This document shows positions 9,151 to 54,376 of a DNA stretch of 64,000 bases, in pieces (position 1 is the stretch's first letter; the number at the start of each line of letters is the position of its first letter). The stretch spans positions 62,001-126,000 of the forward strand of contig CAJFEE010000010.1 in assembly GCA_904373265.1 (NCBI GenBank), in the 5' to 3' direction. Source of the stretch: Candidatus Harrysmithiimonas galli (GTDB lineage: Bacteria; Bacillota; Bacilli; CAJFEE01). A model generated the notes under the pieces. The model was not told the origin of the DNA and did no database searches. It saw nothing but the letters and a program-made list of their open reading frames with translations. The position numbers were made by a program, and so were the translations under genes.

Positions 9151-9192
9151 TGTGTTTGAGAAATAGATATGGACAGTTTGGAGAGATCTGTT

Positions 9193-11400
9193 TTGAAAAA
9201 TAAAAATATTAATCGTGGAGCAGCCCTTATTTTCGCTTTAATAGTGGTTGCTTTTTTGTATATTTATGTATCAATTATAAATGTACAAGTTACAAAACAA
9301 TATAAAGGAACCAACTTGACTGAGGCTTCTACTCAAAAATATACAAGTTATACGAATGTACTGGCAAAGCGAGGTACCATCTATGATGCCAACGGTTTAC
9401 CATTGGCACAAGATATTCCATCTTATACATTGGTTGCTGTATTGGATAAGGAAAAGTTTAGTGTAGGAAAAGATAAACAGCCATTGCATGTTGTAGATGC
9501 CAAACAAACGGCTGAATTGATTGCACCAATCATTGATATGGATATAGATGAAATGTTGCAAATCTTATCTAAAGATAAACTGCAAGTTGAATTTGGTGTG
9601 AAAGGAAAAAATTTGACGATTGAACAAAAAGAGCAAATTGAAGCTTTAGATCTGCCAGGCATTGAATTTATTGAAGGAAAACGAAGATTTTATCCAAACG
9701 GAACATTGGCTGCGCATACCATTGGTTTTTCACAATTGACAGATGATACGAAAGCAGAGAGTCAAAGTGAAGGAAAGCTTGGTTTAGAGAAAAGTATGGA
9801 TGAATTTCTGGCAGAGAAAAACGGGCAAGCCGTTTATCGACTCAGCAGTTTTGGTGTGATGTTAAAGGATCAAGATCAATCAAAAGACCCAATCGATGGG
9901 AAAAATGTGTACTTGACGTTGGATCAAAAAATTCAAATTTTTTTAGAAGATGCGATGGATGCGGTTGTTGAAGATTATGAACCAGAAGAGATCATTGGAA
10001 TCGTAGCTGATCCGAAAACTGGGAAAATTTTGGCGATGGCACAACGTCCAACTTTCGATTTAAATGAACGTAATATTGAAAATTATCTTAATACAGCAGT
10101 TGGTTATGCTTATGAACCTGGTTCAACTATGAAAATATTTACGTTGGCAGCAGCAATTGAAGAAGGTGTTTGGAATCCAAATTTGACTTTTAAATCCGGA
10201 AAATACAAAGTGGGTCCCTCTGTTATTTCTGATCATAATGGAGTTGGTTGGGGAACCATTACATTCTTGGAAGGAGTTCAACGTTCTTCCAATGTATTGT
10301 TTATCAATATTGGAGAAAAATATTTGGGTTATGATACGTTTCGGACTTATTTGGATAAATTCGGATTTAATCAAAAGGTCGGTATAGACTTGCCAAATGA
10401 ATCTGCTGGTAAAATTTTATTTAATTATGAGGTTGAAAAAGCGACCTCGACTTTTGGTCAAGGGACATCTGTCACGCCATTACAACAAATTCAAGCTGCA
10501 ACGGCAATTGCCAATGATGGAAAAATGATGAAGCCATATTTGATTGAACGAATTGAGGATGCCAATACAAAAGAAGTAATTCAACAGACTAAGCCGGAAG
10601 TAGTAGGGACACCAGTTTCTGCTAAAACGGCCAAGGAAGTTCGAGAGATTTTACAGACAACTGTAACAAGTGAAGTTGGGACAGCTCAAAATTATAATAT
10701 TGACGAATATGAGGTGGCTGGAAAAACCGGCACCGCACAGTTGCCTGCAAAGGGTGGCGGCTATTTAACAGGTTGGAACAATTACTTTTTCTCATTTTTA
10801 GGTATGGTACCTGCAGATGACCCAGAATTGCTTGTCTATATTTCTGTCAAACAGCCAAAGTTGGATGCAAAAAAATACGAAGCGGGGAGTGTGCCAGTAT
10901 CAAAAATATTTAATCGTGTTGTGATCAATACTTTGCAATATATGAATGTGCAGCCGAATGAAGAAAAGGTGTCTGTAACGAAATATGAAACAAAACTACC
11001 AGATTTTATCGGTTTATCATTGGCAGAAGCGAAAAAAATGGCAAAATCAAAAGAATTGTCTGTTACAGTTGTCGGAAATGGAAAAAAAATTGTTAGTCAA
11101 TATCCTGAACAAGATAGTACGGTTCCTTTGACAGAAAAAATTCTTTTATTTACAGATGGCAAACTGACAATGCCAGATTTAACTGGCTGGTCCATGCGGG
11201 AAATTATGAATATATCTTCGCTGTTAAATTTGAATGTGACTTTTGAAGGGGAAGGTTATGCATACGCACAAACCATTCCCTCTGGAAGAACGCTGGAGGG
11301 AGAAAAGATTGATTTAATTGTACAGATGAAGCCTCCAAATGAAAAAAATAAGAAAACCACATCAGTAGTTCAAGATGGAACTGAGGTACCATTGAACTAG
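9193..11400 (+). CDS. pbpB: penicillin-binding protein 2B, septal transpeptidase
   Basis: A 735-residue class B PBP. A membrane anchor lies at residues ~10-30, a PBP dimerisation domain begins with AKRGTIYDANGLPLA (~56-70), the transpeptidase active-site STMK has Ser311, SSN is at 365-367 and KTGT at 511-514, and two PASTA domains follow (PDFIGLSLAEAKKMA; MPDLTGWSMREIMN). It cross-links septal peptidoglycan. I chose TTG 9193 because GGAGAG lies seven bases before it and the product LKNKNINRGAA aligns with the B. subtilis N-terminus; ATG 9169 in frame lacks a good site and would add eight residues. A terminator overlapping spoVD follows. Confidence 0.95.
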   Translation: MKNKNINRGAALIFALIVVAFLYIYVSIINVQVTKQYKGTNLTEASTQKYTSYTNVLAKRGTIYDANGLPLAQDIPSYTLVAVLDKEKFSVGKDKQPLHVVDAKQTAELIAPIIDMDIDEMLQILSKDKLQVEFGVKGKNLTIEQKEQIEALDLPGIEFIEGKRRFYPNGTLAAHTIGFSQLTDDTKAESQSEGKLGLEKSMDEFLAEKNGQAVYRLSSFGVMLKDQDQSKDPIDGKNVYLTLDQKIQIFLEDAMDAVVEDYEPEEIIGIVADPKTGKILAMAQRPTFDLNERNIENYLNTAVGYAYEPGSTMKIFTLAAAIEEGVWNPNLTFKSGKYKVGPSVISDHNGVGWGTITFLEGVQRSSNVLFINIGEKYLGYDTFRTYLDKFGFNQKVGIDLPNESAGKILFNYEVEKATSTFGQGTSVTPLQQIQAATAIANDGKMMKPYLIERIEDANTKEVIQQTKPEVVGTPVSAKTAKEVREILQTTVTSEVGTAQNYNIDEYEVAGKTGTAQLPAKGGGYLTGWNNYFFSFLGMVPADDPELLVYISVKQPKLDAKKYEAGSVPVSKIFNRVVINTLQYMNVQPNEEKVSVTKYETKLPDFIGLSLAEAKKMAKSKELSVTVVGNGKKIVSQYPEQDSTVPLTEKILLFTDGKLTMPDLTGWSMREIMNISSLLNLNVTFEGEGYAYAQTIPSGRTLEGEKIDLIVQMKPPNEKNKKTTSVVQDGTEVPLN

Positions 11401-11422
11401 AAGCCGTATTTTTTGCAGAAAT

Positions 11423-11452
11423 GTTCTATTTTAGACAGCTTATACATATATT
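11423..11452 (+). promoter_or_regulatory. putative sigma-E promoter of spoVD inside a terminator arm
   Basis: GTTCTATT (11423-11430), 14 bases, CATATATT (11445-11452): six of eight matches to each commonly cited sigma-E element (GTCATATT, CATACAAT). Transcription would begin near 11459, just past the upstream arm (11434-11455) of the terminator hairpin. The same -10 and TTCTAT core occur before gerR. Confidence 0.55.
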
Positions 11453-11508
11453 GAAACATATTAAATGGCGACTTATGGAGGTTCAATATATGTATGCTGT
11501 CTTTTTTT
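11434..11508 (+). terminator. intrinsic terminator overlapping the spoVD start codon
   Basis: The arm at 11434-11455 (GACAGC, two extra T, ATACATATATTGAA) pairs over 20 bases with 11482-11501 (TTCAATATATGTATGCTGTC), followed at once by seven T (11502-11508). The spoVD ATG (11490) lies in the second arm and the T-run forms codons 5-7 of spoVD; the GGAGG site closes the loop. It would end pbpB read-through before spoVD. Confidence 0.75.
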
Positions 11509-13433
11509 CTTTAAAGCGCAGACTGGTTATTTTTTTTGCAGTTGTATTCTTTTTGTTAGGTGCTGTATTGTTTCGGCTTGGATATGTTCAATTTTTTATG
11601 GGGGACATGCTTACCAAACGTGCAGAAGATTCTTGGAGTCGTGATGTCCCTTTTGAAGCGCAGCGTGGAGATATTTTAGATGTAAATGGTGTGAAGCTGG
11701 CAACCAATCAAACGGCGCCTACAGTATTTGTCGTACCACGTCAAGTGGAGAATTCTATTTTGACTGCTAAAAAGCTTTCAGAGATTCTTGATGTTCCAGA
11801 GCAGCAGATATATAAGCAAATTACGAAAAATTCTTCCATTGAGCGAATCAATCCAGGAGGAAGAAAAATCAGTGTGGAACTTGCCAACCAAGTCCGGGAT
11901 TTGGATTTAAAAGGTGTATTTGTTGCTGAAGATTCTAAGCGTTATTATCCATTTGGAAAATATTTGTCGCATGTACTGGGGTTTGCTGGAATTGATAATC
12001 AAGGATTGAATGGTTTAGAGCTGTATTACGATCGTCATTTAAGCGGGCAAGCAGGGAGGGTTAGTTTTTTTTCTGATGCCAAAGGAAAAAGATTGCCCAA
12101 TTTGGCAGATCAGTATGTTCAAGCCACAGATGGGGCGGATCTGCAATTGACTATTGATGCACGAATTCAAACCATTGTTGAACGGGAAATGGAACTTGCT
12201 GAAGAACGCTATCATCCAGACAGTATGATTGCCATTGCAATGAATCCAAAAAATGGTGAAATTTTGGCGATGAGCAGTCGCCCAAGTTTTGATCCGGGTG
12301 ATTATAAAAATGTTGATCCATTGATTTATAATCGGAATTTGCCAGTGTGGAGCAGTTATGAGCCAGGATCTACGTTTAAAATTATTACATTGGCTTCAGC
12401 TCTTGAGGAAGATATGGTTGATTTGGAAACGGAGCAATTTCATGATCATGGAAGTGTTGAGGTAGATGGAGCCAGATTGAAATGTTGGAAAGCTGGTGGA
12501 CATGGCACACAAACTTTTTTGGAAGTTGTGCAAAATTCTTGTAACCCAGGATTTGTTGAGCTTGGACAACGTTTAGGAAAGGAAAAGTTGTTTTCTTATA
12601 TTGAAAAATTCGGATTTGGTAGTAAAACGGGAATTGATTTGGCGGGTGAAGCGACTGGAATTTTGTTTTCGCTTGATAAAGTCGGACCTGTGGAATTGGC
12701 AACTACAGCTTTCGGTCAAGGGGTTTCTGTTACACCAATTCAACAAATTGCTGCGGTTTCCGCTGCGATAAATGGTGGGAAATTATATACGCCTAAAATT
12801 GCCAAGCAGCTTGTAGACTCTGAATCGGGAAAAATCCTTCAAAAGTTTCCAACTGAAATGAAACGTCAAGTAATTTCAGAAAAAACATCAAAAAAAGTTC
12901 GATTGGCTTTGGAAACTGTTGTTGCACAAGGATCTGGGAAAGGAGCCTTTGTCGATGGGTTCCGTGTTGGAGGAAAAACTGGAACGGCTCAGAAGGTGAA
13001 AAATGGTGTTTATATGCAGGGAAATTATATTTTGTCTTTTATTGGCTTTGCACCAGCTAATGATCCGCAGATTATTGTATATGTTGCAGTTGATAATCCA
13101 AAAGATACGGTGCAATTTGGAGGTACTGTTTCTGCGCCAATTGTAGGAAATATTTTACGTGATGCACAAAAAGTTTTACAGATTCCTTCTATTAAAAATC
13201 AAGTGGAAAAAGAATATACACCTTGGCTGGATCCAAAGCCGATTGAGGTACCGAATTTTGTTGGAATGAAAAAATCGGAGGTGCTTACACAACTCATTGA
13301 TTTAAATGTTGAAGCAGAAGGAGAAGGAGAACTTGTATTTGCACAATCTCCAAAAGCTGGTACAAAATTGGACGCAGGGTCTACGGTTCGTCTGTATTTT
13401 ATTGATGAAAAGGAAAAAGCTAAGAAAAAATAA
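11490..13433 (+). CDS. spoVD: stage V sporulation protein D, sporulation transpeptidase
   Basis: A 647-residue class B PBP nearly collinear with B. subtilis SpoVD. There is one membrane anchor (residues ~9-28), a dimerisation domain starting FEAQRGDILDVNGVKLATN, an active-site Ser294 in EPGSTFKI, the SCNPGF region, KTGT at 496-499, and one C-terminal PASTA domain (VPNFVGMKKSEVL). SpoVD is a mother-cell enzyme needed, with SpoVE, for spore cortex synthesis. Start ATG 11490 follows GGAGG (11477-11481) and gives the family N-terminus; an upstream in-frame start at 11421 would translate the terminator arm. The start region is embedded in a terminator hairpin and its promoter looks sigma-E like. 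Confidence 0.96.
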   Translation: MYAVFFSLKRRLVIFFAVVFFLLGAVLFRLGYVQFFMGDMLTKRAEDSWSRDVPFEAQRGDILDVNGVKLATNQTAPTVFVVPRQVENSILTAKKLSEILDVPEQQIYKQITKNSSIERINPGGRKISVELANQVRDLDLKGVFVAEDSKRYYPFGKYLSHVLGFAGIDNQGLNGLELYYDRHLSGQAGRVSFFSDAKGKRLPNLADQYVQATDGADLQLTIDARIQTIVEREMELAEERYHPDSMIAIAMNPKNGEILAMSSRPSFDPGDYKNVDPLIYNRNLPVWSSYEPGSTFKIITLASALEEDMVDLETEQFHDHGSVEVDGARLKCWKAGGHGTQTFLEVVQNSCNPGFVELGQRLGKEKLFSYIEKFGFGSKTGIDLAGEATGILFSLDKVGPVELATTAFGQGVSVTPIQQIAAVSAAINGGKLYTPKIAKQLVDSESGKILQKFPTEMKRQVISEKTSKKVRLALETVVAQGSGKGAFVDGFRVGGKTGTAQKVKNGVYMQGNYILSFIGFAPANDPQIIVYVAVDNPKDTVQFGGTVSAPIVGNILRDAQKVLQIPSIKNQVEKEYTPWLDPKPIEVPNFVGMKKSEVLTQLIDLNVEAEGEGELVFAQSPKAGTKLDAGSTVRLYFIDEKEKAKKK

Positions 13434-13548
13434 TTTTTTATCGTTGTTTTTGGTTTTTGTAAAAATACATCTGTACGGGAGAAAAATTTCATATATAATG
13501 AAATAAGTTGTGATGAAAAATAAAGTCAATTGAAAAGGAGTGCCCAAA

Positions 13549-17376: not shown

Positions 17377-17433
17377 AACCAAGTTGTCAGCTTCAGATAA
17401 ACATCAGGATTGGTATATGTAGGGGTGTTTATC

Positions 17434-18540
17434 ATGTCTAAGAGAAAAACTGCACCAACACCAGATTTTCTTTTAATCGTTATTATTTTATCTTTATTGG
17501 TAATTGGCTTGATTATGGTTTACAGTGCCAGCTCGGCATGGGCAATGTATAAGTTTCAGGACAGTTTTTACTTTGCTAAAAGACAGCTCTTATTTGCCGG
17601 GATCGGTGTTTTGGCTATGTTTTTTACTGCAACCATTCACTATATGGTATGGAAAAAATATGCAAATATTTTGTTGATTAGCTGTTTTGCTTTATTAATT
17701 TTGGTGTTAATACCTGGTATTGGATTGGTTCGAAACGGTGCACAAAGTTGGATTGGTGTTGGTGCTTTTTCCATTCAGCCTTCAGAGTTTATTAAGTTTG
17801 CCTTACTTTGTTATTTGGCCAAATATTGTGAAGCACACCGAACAGAGATGCCTACATTGAAAAAAGGGTTGTTCCCGACCTTGGGACTTGTGTTTCTTGC
17901 CTTTGCACTTATTATGTTGCAACCAGATTTGGGAAGTGGAGCAGTTTTGGTTGGGACTTGTATGGTTGTAATTTTTATTGCAGGTGTAGCAATTCGTCAT
18001 TATGTGATGTTAGGGTTTATCGGGGTAATTGGTTTTGTTGTATTGGTTTTATCTGCACCTTATCGAATGGAAAGGATTACATCTTATTTGGACCCGTGGT
18101 CTGATCCATTGGGTTCTGGTTTTCAAATGATTCAATCTTTATATGCAATCGGTCCGGGTGGTTTATTTGGTTTAGGTCTTGGAGAAAGTCGGCAAAAGTA
18201 TTTTTATTTACCTGAGCCACAAACAGATTTTATTTTTGCAATTATTAGTGAGGAACTGGGATTTTTTGGTGGTGCGTTGATTATTATTTTATTCTTTCTT
18301 CTTTTATGGCGTGGCATTCGCATTGCTTTAGGTGCACCGGATATGTTTAGCAGTCTTTTGGCAGCCGGGATTATTACAATGGTGACTTTGCAGGCAACCA
18401 TCAATATTGGCGTTGTTACAGGTTTGTTCCCAGTAACAGGAATCACTTTGCCGTTTTTAAGCTATGGTGGTTCATCACTTACATTGATTTTGGCAACAGT
18501 CGGTGTTCTTTTGAATATCAGCAAATATTCAAAAATATAG
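17434..18540 (+). CDS. spoVE: SEDS-family protein SpoVE, cortex glycosyltransferase
   Basis: A 368-residue SEDS protein with about ten membrane helices. It aligns closely to B. subtilis SpoVE, including IGLIMVYSASSAWA, DSFYFAKRQLLFAGIGV, NGAQSWIGVGAFSIQPSEF, PYRMERITSYLDPWSDPLG, YLPEPQTDFIFAIISEELG and PFLSYGGSSL. SEDS proteins polymerise lipid II together with a class B PBP; SpoVE pairs with SpoVD in the spore cortex. FtsW is the alternative, but position between murD and murG and the close match favour SpoVE. ATG 17434 follows AGGGGTG; an upstream in-frame start at 17410 has no site. Confidence 0.92.
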   Translation: MSKRKTAPTPDFLLIVIILSLLVIGLIMVYSASSAWAMYKFQDSFYFAKRQLLFAGIGVLAMFFTATIHYMVWKKYANILLISCFALLILVLIPGIGLVRNGAQSWIGVGAFSIQPSEFIKFALLCYLAKYCEAHRTEMPTLKKGLFPTLGLVFLAFALIMLQPDLGSGAVLVGTCMVVIFIAGVAIRHYVMLGFIGVIGFVVLVLSAPYRMERITSYLDPWSDPLGSGFQMIQSLYAIGPGGLFGLGLGESRQKYFYLPEPQTDFIFAIISEELGFFGGALIIILFFLLLWRGIRIALGAPDMFSSLLAAGIITMVTLQATINIGVVTGLFPVTGITLPFLSYGGSSLTLILATVGVLLNISKYSKI

Positions 18541-29166: not shown

Positions 29167-30060
29167 ATGACTGTTTATCTAGATGTGATTTTTTTACTCA
29201 ATATTTTATTTGATGCCTGTATTTTATTGATTGTTGCATTGATTCGTAAGCAAAAGGTTCGAATATATCGTTTGTTAATTGGAGCAGTTTATGCCGCGTC
29301 TTTTGTTTTTTTTCTGTTGGGACCCTATGCCGCGTTATTTTCCTCACCAGTTGTTAAATTACTTTTTTCAATCGGTATGATATGGGTAACCTTTTTTCCT
29401 TTTACATTTCGTACCGGACTTTGTTTGTTGTTTGATTTATACGTTGTTACGTTTTCACTTGGCGGTGCTTTATTCGGTCTGCATTATTTTTTTGGACAAT
29501 CACTGGAAATGCGAAGTGGTGCACTTGTAACGAGAAATGGGGGATATGGTGATCCAGTTACGTGGGGGTTTGTTTGTATATTATTTCCAATTCTAGCTTA
29601 TTTGTATATAAAAAATGATCAACATCGAAAAATGAAAAAGATCCAGGACAACTCAATCTATAACTGCCAATTTGATTTTCTCAATTTTCAAATTATCTGT
29701 AAGGGATTGTTGGATACAGGAAATCGTCTTGTTGATCCACTGACCAATCGTCCAGTTGTTATCTTGGATGTCAAACGATTTCGGCAAGCTTTACCAAATG
29801 ATCTGTATGAAAAAATGATACAGCCCAATCAAGCGGTTCCAGATTTTGATAAAGTTTGGATAAAATATCGTTTACATTGGATTCCATACCGATCACTTGG
29901 AAATTCAAATGGTAGGTTAATTGGTATGGAAGCTGTTAAACTAAAAGTTTCTAACCAAGATGAAACAGTTTGTTTTTTTAAAGTGTTGGTTGCCTTTGCC
30001 TCAGAGCCATTACATACGGAGGCGTTTTCATGTATTTTAAATCCAAAACTTTGGATATAA
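29167..30060 (+). CDS. spoIIGA: pro-sigma-E processing protease SpoIIGA
   Basis: A 297-residue membrane-embedded aspartic protease. The first ~155 residues hold five membrane segments (YLDVIFLLNILFDACILLIV begins the first), and the cytoplasmic C-terminal half carries GLLDTGNRLVDPLTNRPVVI with the catalytic Asp183 of the DTG motif. It dimerises in the sporulation septum and cleaves pro-sigma-E on receiving SpoIIR signalling from the forespore. ATG 29167 follows AAAGGAAAG. It forms the spoIIG operon with sigE, 30 bases downstream. Confidence 0.96.
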   Translation: MTVYLDVIFLLNILFDACILLIVALIRKQKVRIYRLLIGAVYAASFVFFLLGPYAALFSSPVVKLLFSIGMIWVTFFPFTFRTGLCLLFDLYVVTFSLGGALFGLHYFFGQSLEMRSGALVTRNGGYGDPVTWGFVCILFPILAYLYIKNDQHRKMKKIQDNSIYNCQFDFLNFQIICKGLLDTGNRLVDPLTNRPVVILDVKRFRQALPNDLYEKMIQPNQAVPDFDKVWIKYRLHWIPYRSLGNSNGRLIGMEAVKLKVSNQDETVCFFKVLVAFASEPLHTEAFSCILNPKLWI

Positions 30061-30090
30061 GTAAACAGATTAAATGAAAGGTTGAATGAG

Positions 30091-30810
30091 ATGAAAAGAA
30101 TCCTATTAAAAATCCGAGTGTTGATGCAAAACATATTGAGGCGTCTGCGTTTAAAGGATGAAGAGGTTTTTTATATTGGAGGAAGTGAAGCCTTGCCTTC
30201 ACCATTAGAAAAAAGTGAAGAGGCATATTATTTACATTTATTCAGTCAGGGAGATATGGAGGCAAGGAGTATTTTGATTGAACATAATTTGCGTTTGGTT
30301 GTTTATATTGCAAGGAAATTTGAGAATACAGGCATTCATATTGAGGATTTAATTTCTATTGGTTCTATTGGGTTAATTAAGGCAGTTAATACATTTAATT
30401 TAGAGAAAAAAATAAAGCTGGCAACCTATGCCTCAAGATGTATAGAAAATGAAATTTTGATGTTTTTACGCAGAAACAATAAACGTCGTTCAGAAGTTTC
30501 GTTTGACGAACCATTAAATATTGATTGGGATGGAAATGAGCTTTTGCTTTCAGATGTGCTTGGTACGGATGATAATTTGATTACCAAAGATTTGGAAGCA
30601 AGTGTAGACCGTGTTTTGTTAAAAAAGGCAATGCATCAATTAAATGCAAGAGAAAAACAAATTATGGAGTTGCGTTTTGGATTGAACGGAGAAGAAGAAA
30701 AAACACAAAAGGATGTAGCAGATTTATTGGGAATTTCTCAGTCTTATATTTCCAGGTTGGAAAAACGAATTATCAAGCGACTGCGAAAAGAGTTTAATAA
30801 AATGGTGTAA
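30091..30810 (+). CDS. sigE: RNA polymerase sporulation sigma factor E precursor
   Basis: A 239-residue pro-sigma-E, exactly the B. subtilis length. The N-terminal ~28 residues ([20 protein letters not shown]...) are the amphipathic pro-sequence that holds it at the membrane; cleavage by SpoIIGA occurs just before the YIGGSEALP segment. Region 2 ([17 protein letters not shown]-like, [31 protein letters not shown]) and region 4 ([21 protein letters not shown]) are nearly unchanged. It drives early mother-cell genes such as spoVD. I chose ATG 30091 over TTG 30082 by spacing to AAAGG and by family length. Confidence 0.98.
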
Positions 30811-30840
30811 ATTTTGATTTTTTTAATATCGTTTAAGAAA

Positions 30841-30869
30841 GAATATTTCTTTTGTCCATGGAAATACTT
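30841..30869 (+). promoter_or_regulatory. putative sigma-F/sigma-G promoter of sigG
   Basis: GAATA (30841-30845), 17 bases, AATACTT (30863-30869), five of seven matches to the sigma-G -10 CATWMTA. sigG of B. subtilis is read by sigma-F and sigma-G. Confidence 0.5.
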
Positions 30870-30912
30870 GTCACTGTAAGATAACCTTTACAACTTCTAG
30901 GAGGGGACTTTT

Positions 30913-31689
30913 GTGGCAAGAAACAAGGTAGAAATTTGCGGTGTGGATACATCAAAGCTGCCAGTCATTAAAAATGATAAAATGCGGCAGCTATTTGCCG
31001 AAATGCAGGCGGGAAACCGTGAAGCAAGAGAAGAGTTAATCTACGGGAATTTACGACTTGTTTTGAGCGTGATTCAAAGGTTTCATAATCGTGGCGAGTA
31101 TGTGGACGATTTATTTCAGGTAGGTTGCATTGGCTTAATGAAATCAATTGATAACTTTGATTTAAGTCAAAATGTGCGTTTTTCCACTTATGCAGTTCCA
31201 ATGATTATCGGTGAAATCAGAAGATATTTGCGGGACAATAATCCGATTCGTGTGTCACGTTCACTGCGTGATATTGCTTATAAAGCCTTGCAAGTACGTG
31301 AGCGTTTAATTGGAGAAAATGCAAAAGACCCGACACCAGAGCAAATTGCCAAGGAGCTGGATGTTAGTCAGGAAGAGGTTGTTTTTGCATTGGATGCAAT
31401 TCAAGATCCGGTTTCATTGTTTGAGCCGATTTATAATGATGGGGGAGATCCAATTTTTGTTATGGATCAGTTGGGAGATGAACGGGTAAAAGACGAGCAC
31501 TGGCTTGATGAGCTTGCACTGCGAGAAGGTTTGAAACTGTTGAATGCAAGAGAAAAGTTGATTATTGGTAAACGTTTTTTTCAAGGGAAAACACAAATGG
31601 AAGTTGCAGAAGAAATTGGAATCAGTCAAGCGCAGGTTTCACGTTTGGAGAAAGCTGCAATTAAACAAATGAATAAAAATATTCAATGA
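30913..31689 (+). CDS. sigG: RNA polymerase sporulation sigma factor G
   Basis: A 258-residue late forespore sigma factor, almost identical in layout to B. subtilis SigG. It starts MARNKVEICGVDTSKLPV and has region 2 (NLRLVLSVIQRFHNRGEYVDDLFQVGCIGLMKSIDNFD), region 3 and region 4 with the helix-turn-helix GKTQMEVAEEIGISQAQVSRLEK. It activates genes for spore DNA protection and germination. The start is GTG 30913, six bases after AGGAGGGGAC. It follows sigE by 102 bases with its own putative promoter. Confidence 0.98.
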   Translation: MARNKVEICGVDTSKLPVIKNDKMRQLFAEMQAGNREAREELIYGNLRLVLSVIQRFHNRGEYVDDLFQVGCIGLMKSIDNFDLSQNVRFSTYAVPMIIGEIRRYLRDNNPIRVSRSLRDIAYKALQVRERLIGENAKDPTPEQIAKELDVSQEEVVFALDAIQDPVSLFEPIYNDGGDPIFVMDQLGDERVKDEHWLDELALREGLKLLNAREKLIIGKRFFQGKTQMEVAEEIGISQAQVSRLEKAAIKQMNKNIQ

Positions 31690-38667: not shown

Positions 38668-38673
38668 ATCTCA

Positions 38674-38937
38674 TATACGTAGATGAGGGCAAGTACGTTT
38701 TATAACAGAAGCAGCGAATCAGGGAATGGTGAGAGCCTGATCAGAAGTTATAAACCGGAAAATCACCTTTGAGTTTTTATTCTGAACATGTATTAAAGTA
38801 AGAATAAACGTATCATTTGGCGTTAACAAATGCAAAGTGGATCTTCATAGTTAGTAAAACTGCGAAAATCAAAACCGGGTGGTACCGCGGGTATGTTAAA
38901 ATACAAGCTCGTCCCTTTTTAGGGACGAGCTTTTTTG
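38674..38937 (+). ncRNA. T-box riboswitch, isoleucine specific
   Basis: The T-box sequence with the conserved GGGTGGTACCGCGG core (38877-38890) is followed by the terminator AAGCTCGTCCCT (38905-38916) / AGGGACGAGCTT (38921-38932) with T-run. In stem I the specifier loop appears to be AAAATCACCTTTGAG, giving ATC (Ile) at 38762-38764, which fits the downstream ileS. Uncharged tRNA-Ile binding at specifier and T-box stabilises the antiterminator. Confidence 0.95.
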
Positions 38938-54341: not shown

Positions 54342-54376
54342 ATGGGTTTGTGATGTGTAGCACATCACAAACCCAT
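54342..54376. terminator. perfect 16-bp hairpin, probable pyr operon terminator
   Basis: ATGGGTTTGTGATGTG (54342-54357), loop TAG, CACATCACAAACCCAT (54361-54376): a perfect 16-base stem. There is no T-run at once on the plus strand (a TTTTTTT run starts about 13 bases later); on the minus strand the stem is followed by TTCTTTC. It may act in both directions. Confidence 0.6.

Follow-up and report, generated by a model that had tools for sequence, protein, structure and literature searches.

Because spoVD lies behind the vegetative genes of a wall and division cluster, its position raises the question of how a sporulation gene can be kept silent during growth. We addressed this question in a 64,000-nt stretch of Candidatus Harrysmithiimonas galli (GCA_904373265.1, contig CAJFEE010000010.1, positions 62,001-126,000 of the forward strand). 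This whole stretch is referred to as the window; positions are numbered within it, and all parts of the junction described below lie on its plus strand. The gene order is mraZ-mraW-ftsL-pbpB, spoVD, murE, mraY, murD, spoVE, murG. Names within this dcw-type block were taken from the reading frames and the known gene order, and only those of pbpB and spoVD were checked against profiles. The open reading frame of pbpB (9169-11400), which closes the mraZ-mraW-ftsL-pbpB block and encodes the vegetative division transpeptidase with PASTA domains, matches class B PBP profiles. The sporulation-specific transpeptidase gene spoVD (11490-13433) matches NCBIfam TIGR02214 (spoVD_pbp) with 844 bits against a cut-off of 688, and the SpoVD of the relative genome G001 likewise exceeds this cut-off. 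An in-frame ATG at 11421 was considered as the spoVD start and rejected; G001 carries ATG TTC TAA at this place, and since a stop soon follows there, the upstream ATG is not a conserved start.

Putative promoter and hairpin at the pbpB-spoVD junction

Most Bacillaceae spoVD junctions carry a putative promoter of the form GTTCTA-N16-CATATA, often GTACAAGCATATATTTGAACGAGCC, in which the two elements keep a constant distance. In the window, the -35-like element GTTCTATT (11423-11430) and the -10-like element CATATATT (11445-11452) are separated by a 14-nt spacer and stand in the register of the conserved promoter of the relatives. The initial annotation had placed a sigma-E-like promoter in and before the first arm of a hairpin, and this shared register supports the placement; the factor is presumably sigma-E. 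Recognition of the spoVD promoter by sigma-E would follow from known spoVD biology. Going by where the -10 element lies, the sporulation transcript would start near 11459 (+/-2), downstream of the first arm. The -35 sequence GTTCTA of this promoter is very conserved across Bacilli and differs from the textbook sigma-E hexamer, while in more distant families the -10 element of spoVD reads GAATAGGGT in place of CATATA.

Folding of the junction RNA (11423-11515) yielded a minimum free energy of -24.4 kcal/mol; shuffled sequences averaged -11.3, and none of the 200 folded as well (z -5.1). The first arm (11433-11455) and the second arm (11482-11502) form a stem of 21 bp, in which a 7-bp basal part (11433-11439 with 11496-11502) is followed by a 2-nt bulge (11440-11441) and a 14-bp upper part (11442-11455 with 11482-11495). 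The 26-nt loop (11456-11481) contains the Shine-Dalgarno sequence GGAGG (11477-11481) on the side of the second arm. The second arm itself holds the spoVD start codon (11490-11492) and codons 2-4, and the ATG pairs exactly with the CAT (11445-11447) of the -10 box CATATATT. The start codon is therefore paired with sequence upstream of the putative start of the gene's own transcript. Directly after the stem, a run of seven T (11502-11508) forms codons 5-7. The initial annotation had described a 20-bp stem followed at once by seven T; the stem and the T-run were borne out and the length was corrected to 21 bp, while its assignment of the ATG to the second arm and of the T-run to codons 5-7 agrees with both sequence and fold.

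In the form expected of a terminator, a stable stem (21 bp, -24 kcal/mol) thus passes directly into a U-tract. The stem base GACAGC/GCTGTC includes four G-C pairs; the loop is 26 nt long, and a short-loop scan of the window does not list this hairpin. Judged by folding energy alone, equally strong hairpins precede T-runs elsewhere in the window (26119, 39995 and 54328), and energy alone is therefore unconvincing for the spoVD hairpin. The case beyond chance is made by the near-perfect stem, the overlap of its parts and the comparative data. At 54342-54376, a terminator-like hairpin with 16 perfect base pairs was detected on both strands. A search of the window at Rfam gathering thresholds found no curated RNA family at the spoVD junction and matched only a T-box leader (RF00230, 114.9 bits) at 38671-38919.

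Arm pairing in the nearest relative and across Bacilli

The comparison within the family was made with one relative genome, G001 (junction L004). Its architecture is alike although the letters differ: the promoter is present, the start codon lies in the second arm, T7 follows directly after the stem, and a 2-nt bulge occurs near the matching place in the first arm. The basal stem reads AGACAGC/GCTGTCT in the window and AGTGGTA/TGCCACT in G001, so that both partners differ at 5 of the 7 basal pairs, yet pairing is kept throughout, one U-G wobble included. Own arms pair with -26.6 in the window and -21.3 in G001, as compared with -7.7 and -16.9 for the crossed arms. The G001 hairpin folds with a z of -2.6, and the end of pbpB is able to compete for its first arm. 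Compensatory changes in the two arms of a relative, which the initial annotation had proposed as a check, were thus found in G001 with T7 retained.

Junctions of spoVD were then gathered from the class Bacilli in sets of 60 (dereplicated) and 84. In many Bacillaceae the promoter is complementary to the ribosome-binding and start region of spoVD, the -10 and first-transcribed block pairing with the block around the start. A swap test, in which 5' arms were exchanged between lineages, asked whether own arms pair beyond the fixed common motifs. Among the 60 junctions, own arms paired better than swapped ones for the -10 box (-8..+14) against the start (-16..+6), with z -7.3 and 0/4000. The signal was strongest for this combination: moving the analysed block away from either the -10 box or the start region left z values of -3.1 to +1.3, and the overlapping block 0..+22 gave -5.7. 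The set of 84 junctions gave z -8.5 (0/5000). Within single families, the test gave z -4.6 (0/5000) in f33 and z -1.0, with little pairing, in f14, presumably the genus Bacillus proper; in f37 swapping had no effect because the helix is strong but uniform. As a limit of the test, the comparison gene spoVE gave z values of -1 to -2.2 in most windows and -4.4 in one, which may be a real signal or a baseline bias of the swap test.

Matched helices with differing letters include CATATAGTGGAAC/GTTCCACTATATG (L201), ATTTAAACGAGCC/GGTTCGTTTAGAT (L262), AAATGGAACGAGCC/GGTTCGTTCCATTT (L294) and TGAATG/CATTCA, and depending on the lineage, the -10 box and the start codon lie 36 to 76 nt apart. Taken with the changes in G001, the swap tests indicate that the start-masking pairing is selected and kept by compensatory change. 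The U-tract is confined to the two-genome family of the window and G001, and relatives outside it pair without one. In f14 junctions (e.g. L122, L129), GAACGAGCC is conserved directly after the -10 box without a pairing partner, which suggests another role for it, in the initially transcribed region or as a regulator site. In Fictibacillus (L033-L042), the spacer and the -10 element pair instead with spoVD codons 3-11, which encode the conserved VSNVTVRRR; this hairpin, with an energy of roughly -36 to -44 kcal/mol, holds the Shine-Dalgarno sequence and a GTG in its loop and has no clean U-tract.

In many Bacilli (e.g. L005, L006, L007), an ordinary intrinsic terminator likewise insulates spoVD from pbpB transcription. 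Such terminators precede the promoter and are not part of the gene, whereas the hairpin of the window is itself promoter and coding sequence; neither the window nor G001 was found to have another terminator in the interval from pbpB to the spoVD promoter. Across the 84 junctions, mean pairing was -8.2 where a terminator lies upstream of the promoter (n=32) and -12.4 where none does (n=52), with p 1e-4. The same contrast is weaker within families (p 0.066 in f33, p 0.38 in f14), and shared descent therefore explains part of it. An earlier and smaller within-family test of pairing against upstream terminators was not significant (p 0.25). In f33, the swap signal was z -4.6 for the 27 terminator-free junctions and z -0.9 for the 10 with a terminator, a set of low power. 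A trade-off between terminator and pairing is thus suggestive in f33, and a phylogeny-corrected trade-off is not claimed.

Proposed translation block, probable termination and alternative explanations

The sequence, the fold, the compensation in G001 and the coevolution of the arms are observed, and we consider it probable that together they represent a promoter-encoded silencer of read-through RNA. Vegetative RNA of the pbpB operon would carry both arms and fold the hairpin, and pairing of the spoVD start codon with the transcribed -10 box would leave spoVD untranslated. RNA from the sporulation promoter, presumably made by sigma-E polymerase, would begin a few bases past the -10 box without the first arm, so that the Shine-Dalgarno sequence and the start codon would be open and translated. 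Should this RNA start 4-5 nt upstream of the expected site, about 9 bp would be left in the sporulation RNA of f33 and only 3 bp in that of the window. Predicted openness of the region -14..+6 in the window is 0.24 in read-through RNA versus 0.52 in RNA from 11459. Over the 60 junctions, mean predicted openness of the ribosome-binding and start region is 0.30 in read-through RNA versus 0.44 in promoter-started RNA, and 0.35 +/- 0.012 with the upstream arm of another species. As read-through RNA contains both arms and differs in this way in openness, we see the ancestral function as keeping spoVD untranslated in growth-phase RNA, to which the U-tract would be a later gain in the window's family.

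In the window's lineage the stem would have been lengthened into codons 2-4 with U7 directly after it, and some of the polymerases that read through probably terminate there; in this family the hairpin and U7 would thus probably act as a terminator as well. The initial annotation had proposed that read-through transcription is cut before spoVD. The hairpin is indeed terminator-like, but this proposal was revised: what is widely conserved is the hairpin that masks the start codon. Complete termination is doubtful because none of the sequence ahead of murE makes a convincing promoter. A TATAAT upstream of murE (13494-13499), absent from the promoter scan and lacking a recognisable -35, is a possible weak vegetative promoter, and a search for a vegetative murE promoter in G001 found none recognisable. 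Expression of murE-mraY-murD probably depends on a certain amount of read-through.

If the hairpin and U7 were instead purely an intrinsic terminator that stops vegetative transcription before spoVD, masking of the start would be a by-product. Such a role would fit U7, which adjoins the stem in the window and in G001 alike and occupies codons that encode VSNVT in other SpoVD genes, as well as the compensatory changes in the basal stem adjoining the U-tract and the lack of another terminator ahead of the promoter. We nevertheless regard it as unlikely, given that in relatives beyond the family the arms still pair although a U-tract is lacking, and that murE-mraY-murD need vegetative transcription with no good murE promoter seen. 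The 26-nt loop also speaks against it and, together with the A/T-rich upper stem, is unusual for a strong terminator; the U-tract, moreover, could be two Phe codons retained for the sake of the protein. With the U-tract limited to two genomes, the common function is more likely a translation block to which termination was added in this family.

The inverted repeat could also be a DNA element, such as the operator of a dimeric regulator, or a product of constraints acting on each arm separately (the CATAT of the -10 element and the ATATG at the start). CAT and ATG are indeed fixed on the two sides, and GAACGAGCC is conserved even in f14 without a partner, so part of the complementarity comes free. 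The fixed motifs are, however, part of the swap test, which gives z -8.5 all the same, and the paired letters vary by matched changes. An operator was rejected on the variable spacing of the arms, as a protein dimer would not tolerate distances of 36 to 76 nt, and we judge this pair of explanations very improbable. That the hairpin is a chance structure, with spoVD silent in growth because little RNA reads through, is hardly credible to us: the window does hold several T-run hairpins of similar energy, but chance accounts poorly for a 21-bp stem with a z of -5, for the compensatory change in G001 and for the localised coevolution in relatives.

Beyond the silencer itself, we tentatively suggest, with rather less than even confidence, that Bacillaceae have two interchangeable insulations of spoVD in the dcw cluster, a terminator or a promoter/start hairpin, which the window's family would have fused, and that spoVE is perhaps alike. 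In the fused form, start codon, codons 2-7, promoter and terminator would lie within one 80-base stretch. Like spoVD, spoVE is a sporulation gene behind vegetative genes, and it gave the swap z of -4.4 in one window. At the murD-spoVE junction (17395-17436; L358) its start lies beside or inside a hairpin of 10 bp in the window and 12 bp in G001, with differing letters; the fold of this junction in the window is no better than shuffles.

Known systems and biological meaning

The transposase genes of IS10 and IS50 are protected from outside transcription in a similar way: read-through RNA folds over the ribosome site, while the genes' own promoter initiates beyond the first arm. These systems belong to mobile elements and are not known to have a U-tract. 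In phage T4, the start of gene e (lysozyme), and also of soc, 49 and I-TevI, is masked in early read-through RNA, the late promoter lies within the 5' strand of the structure, and a 100-fold reduction is reported for gene e (PMC3014915). The likeness to spoVD is close: RNA initiated upstream hides the Shine-Dalgarno sequence and AUG, whereas the DNA of the gene's own promoter encodes the 5' strand and leaves its own transcript free. Gene e differs as a phage gene with a T4 late promoter, and the passages of PMC3014915 cited here do not mention a U-tract or a role in termination. In B. subtilis, sigG (spoIIIG) lies downstream of spoIIG, and translation of its read-through RNA was proposed to be blocked by a 20+ bp hairpin, a structure that cannot arise in RNA from PsigG (PMC5942855, citing Masuda 1988 and Sun 1991). 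As proposed for spoVD, a hairpin would act against read-through translation of a sporulation gene behind another operon, although the gene and the sigma factor are different and a terminator role is not described in the cited passages of PMC5942855. The window contains its own spoIIGA-sigE-sigG cluster (29167-31689), and unlike in B. subtilis a strong read-through hairpin is not evident at its sigG junction (fold z -0.9).

Since the proposed spoVD silencer would work like those of T4 gene e and B. subtilis sigG, its mechanism is of a known kind. A text search of the literature for spoVD with hairpin returned nothing relevant. The earlier view that the arrangement had not been described therefore holds for spoVD in the literature searched, but not for the underlying logic, which is documented for the cited T4 (PMC3014915) and sigG (PMC5942855) cases. 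We regard spoVD as a new instance, and the form with the start codon inside a terminator looks new.

If true, this reading would account for the silence of spoVD, without extra DNA or a regulator, within the growth-phase cluster for wall synthesis and division that is conserved most. One sequence could then combine the functions of a promoter and an RNA structure with those of a start codon and coding sequence, and the structure coevolves across many genera. A search for coevolution between a -10 box and a downstream start codon could, in turn, uncover further genes that are silenced in read-through RNA.
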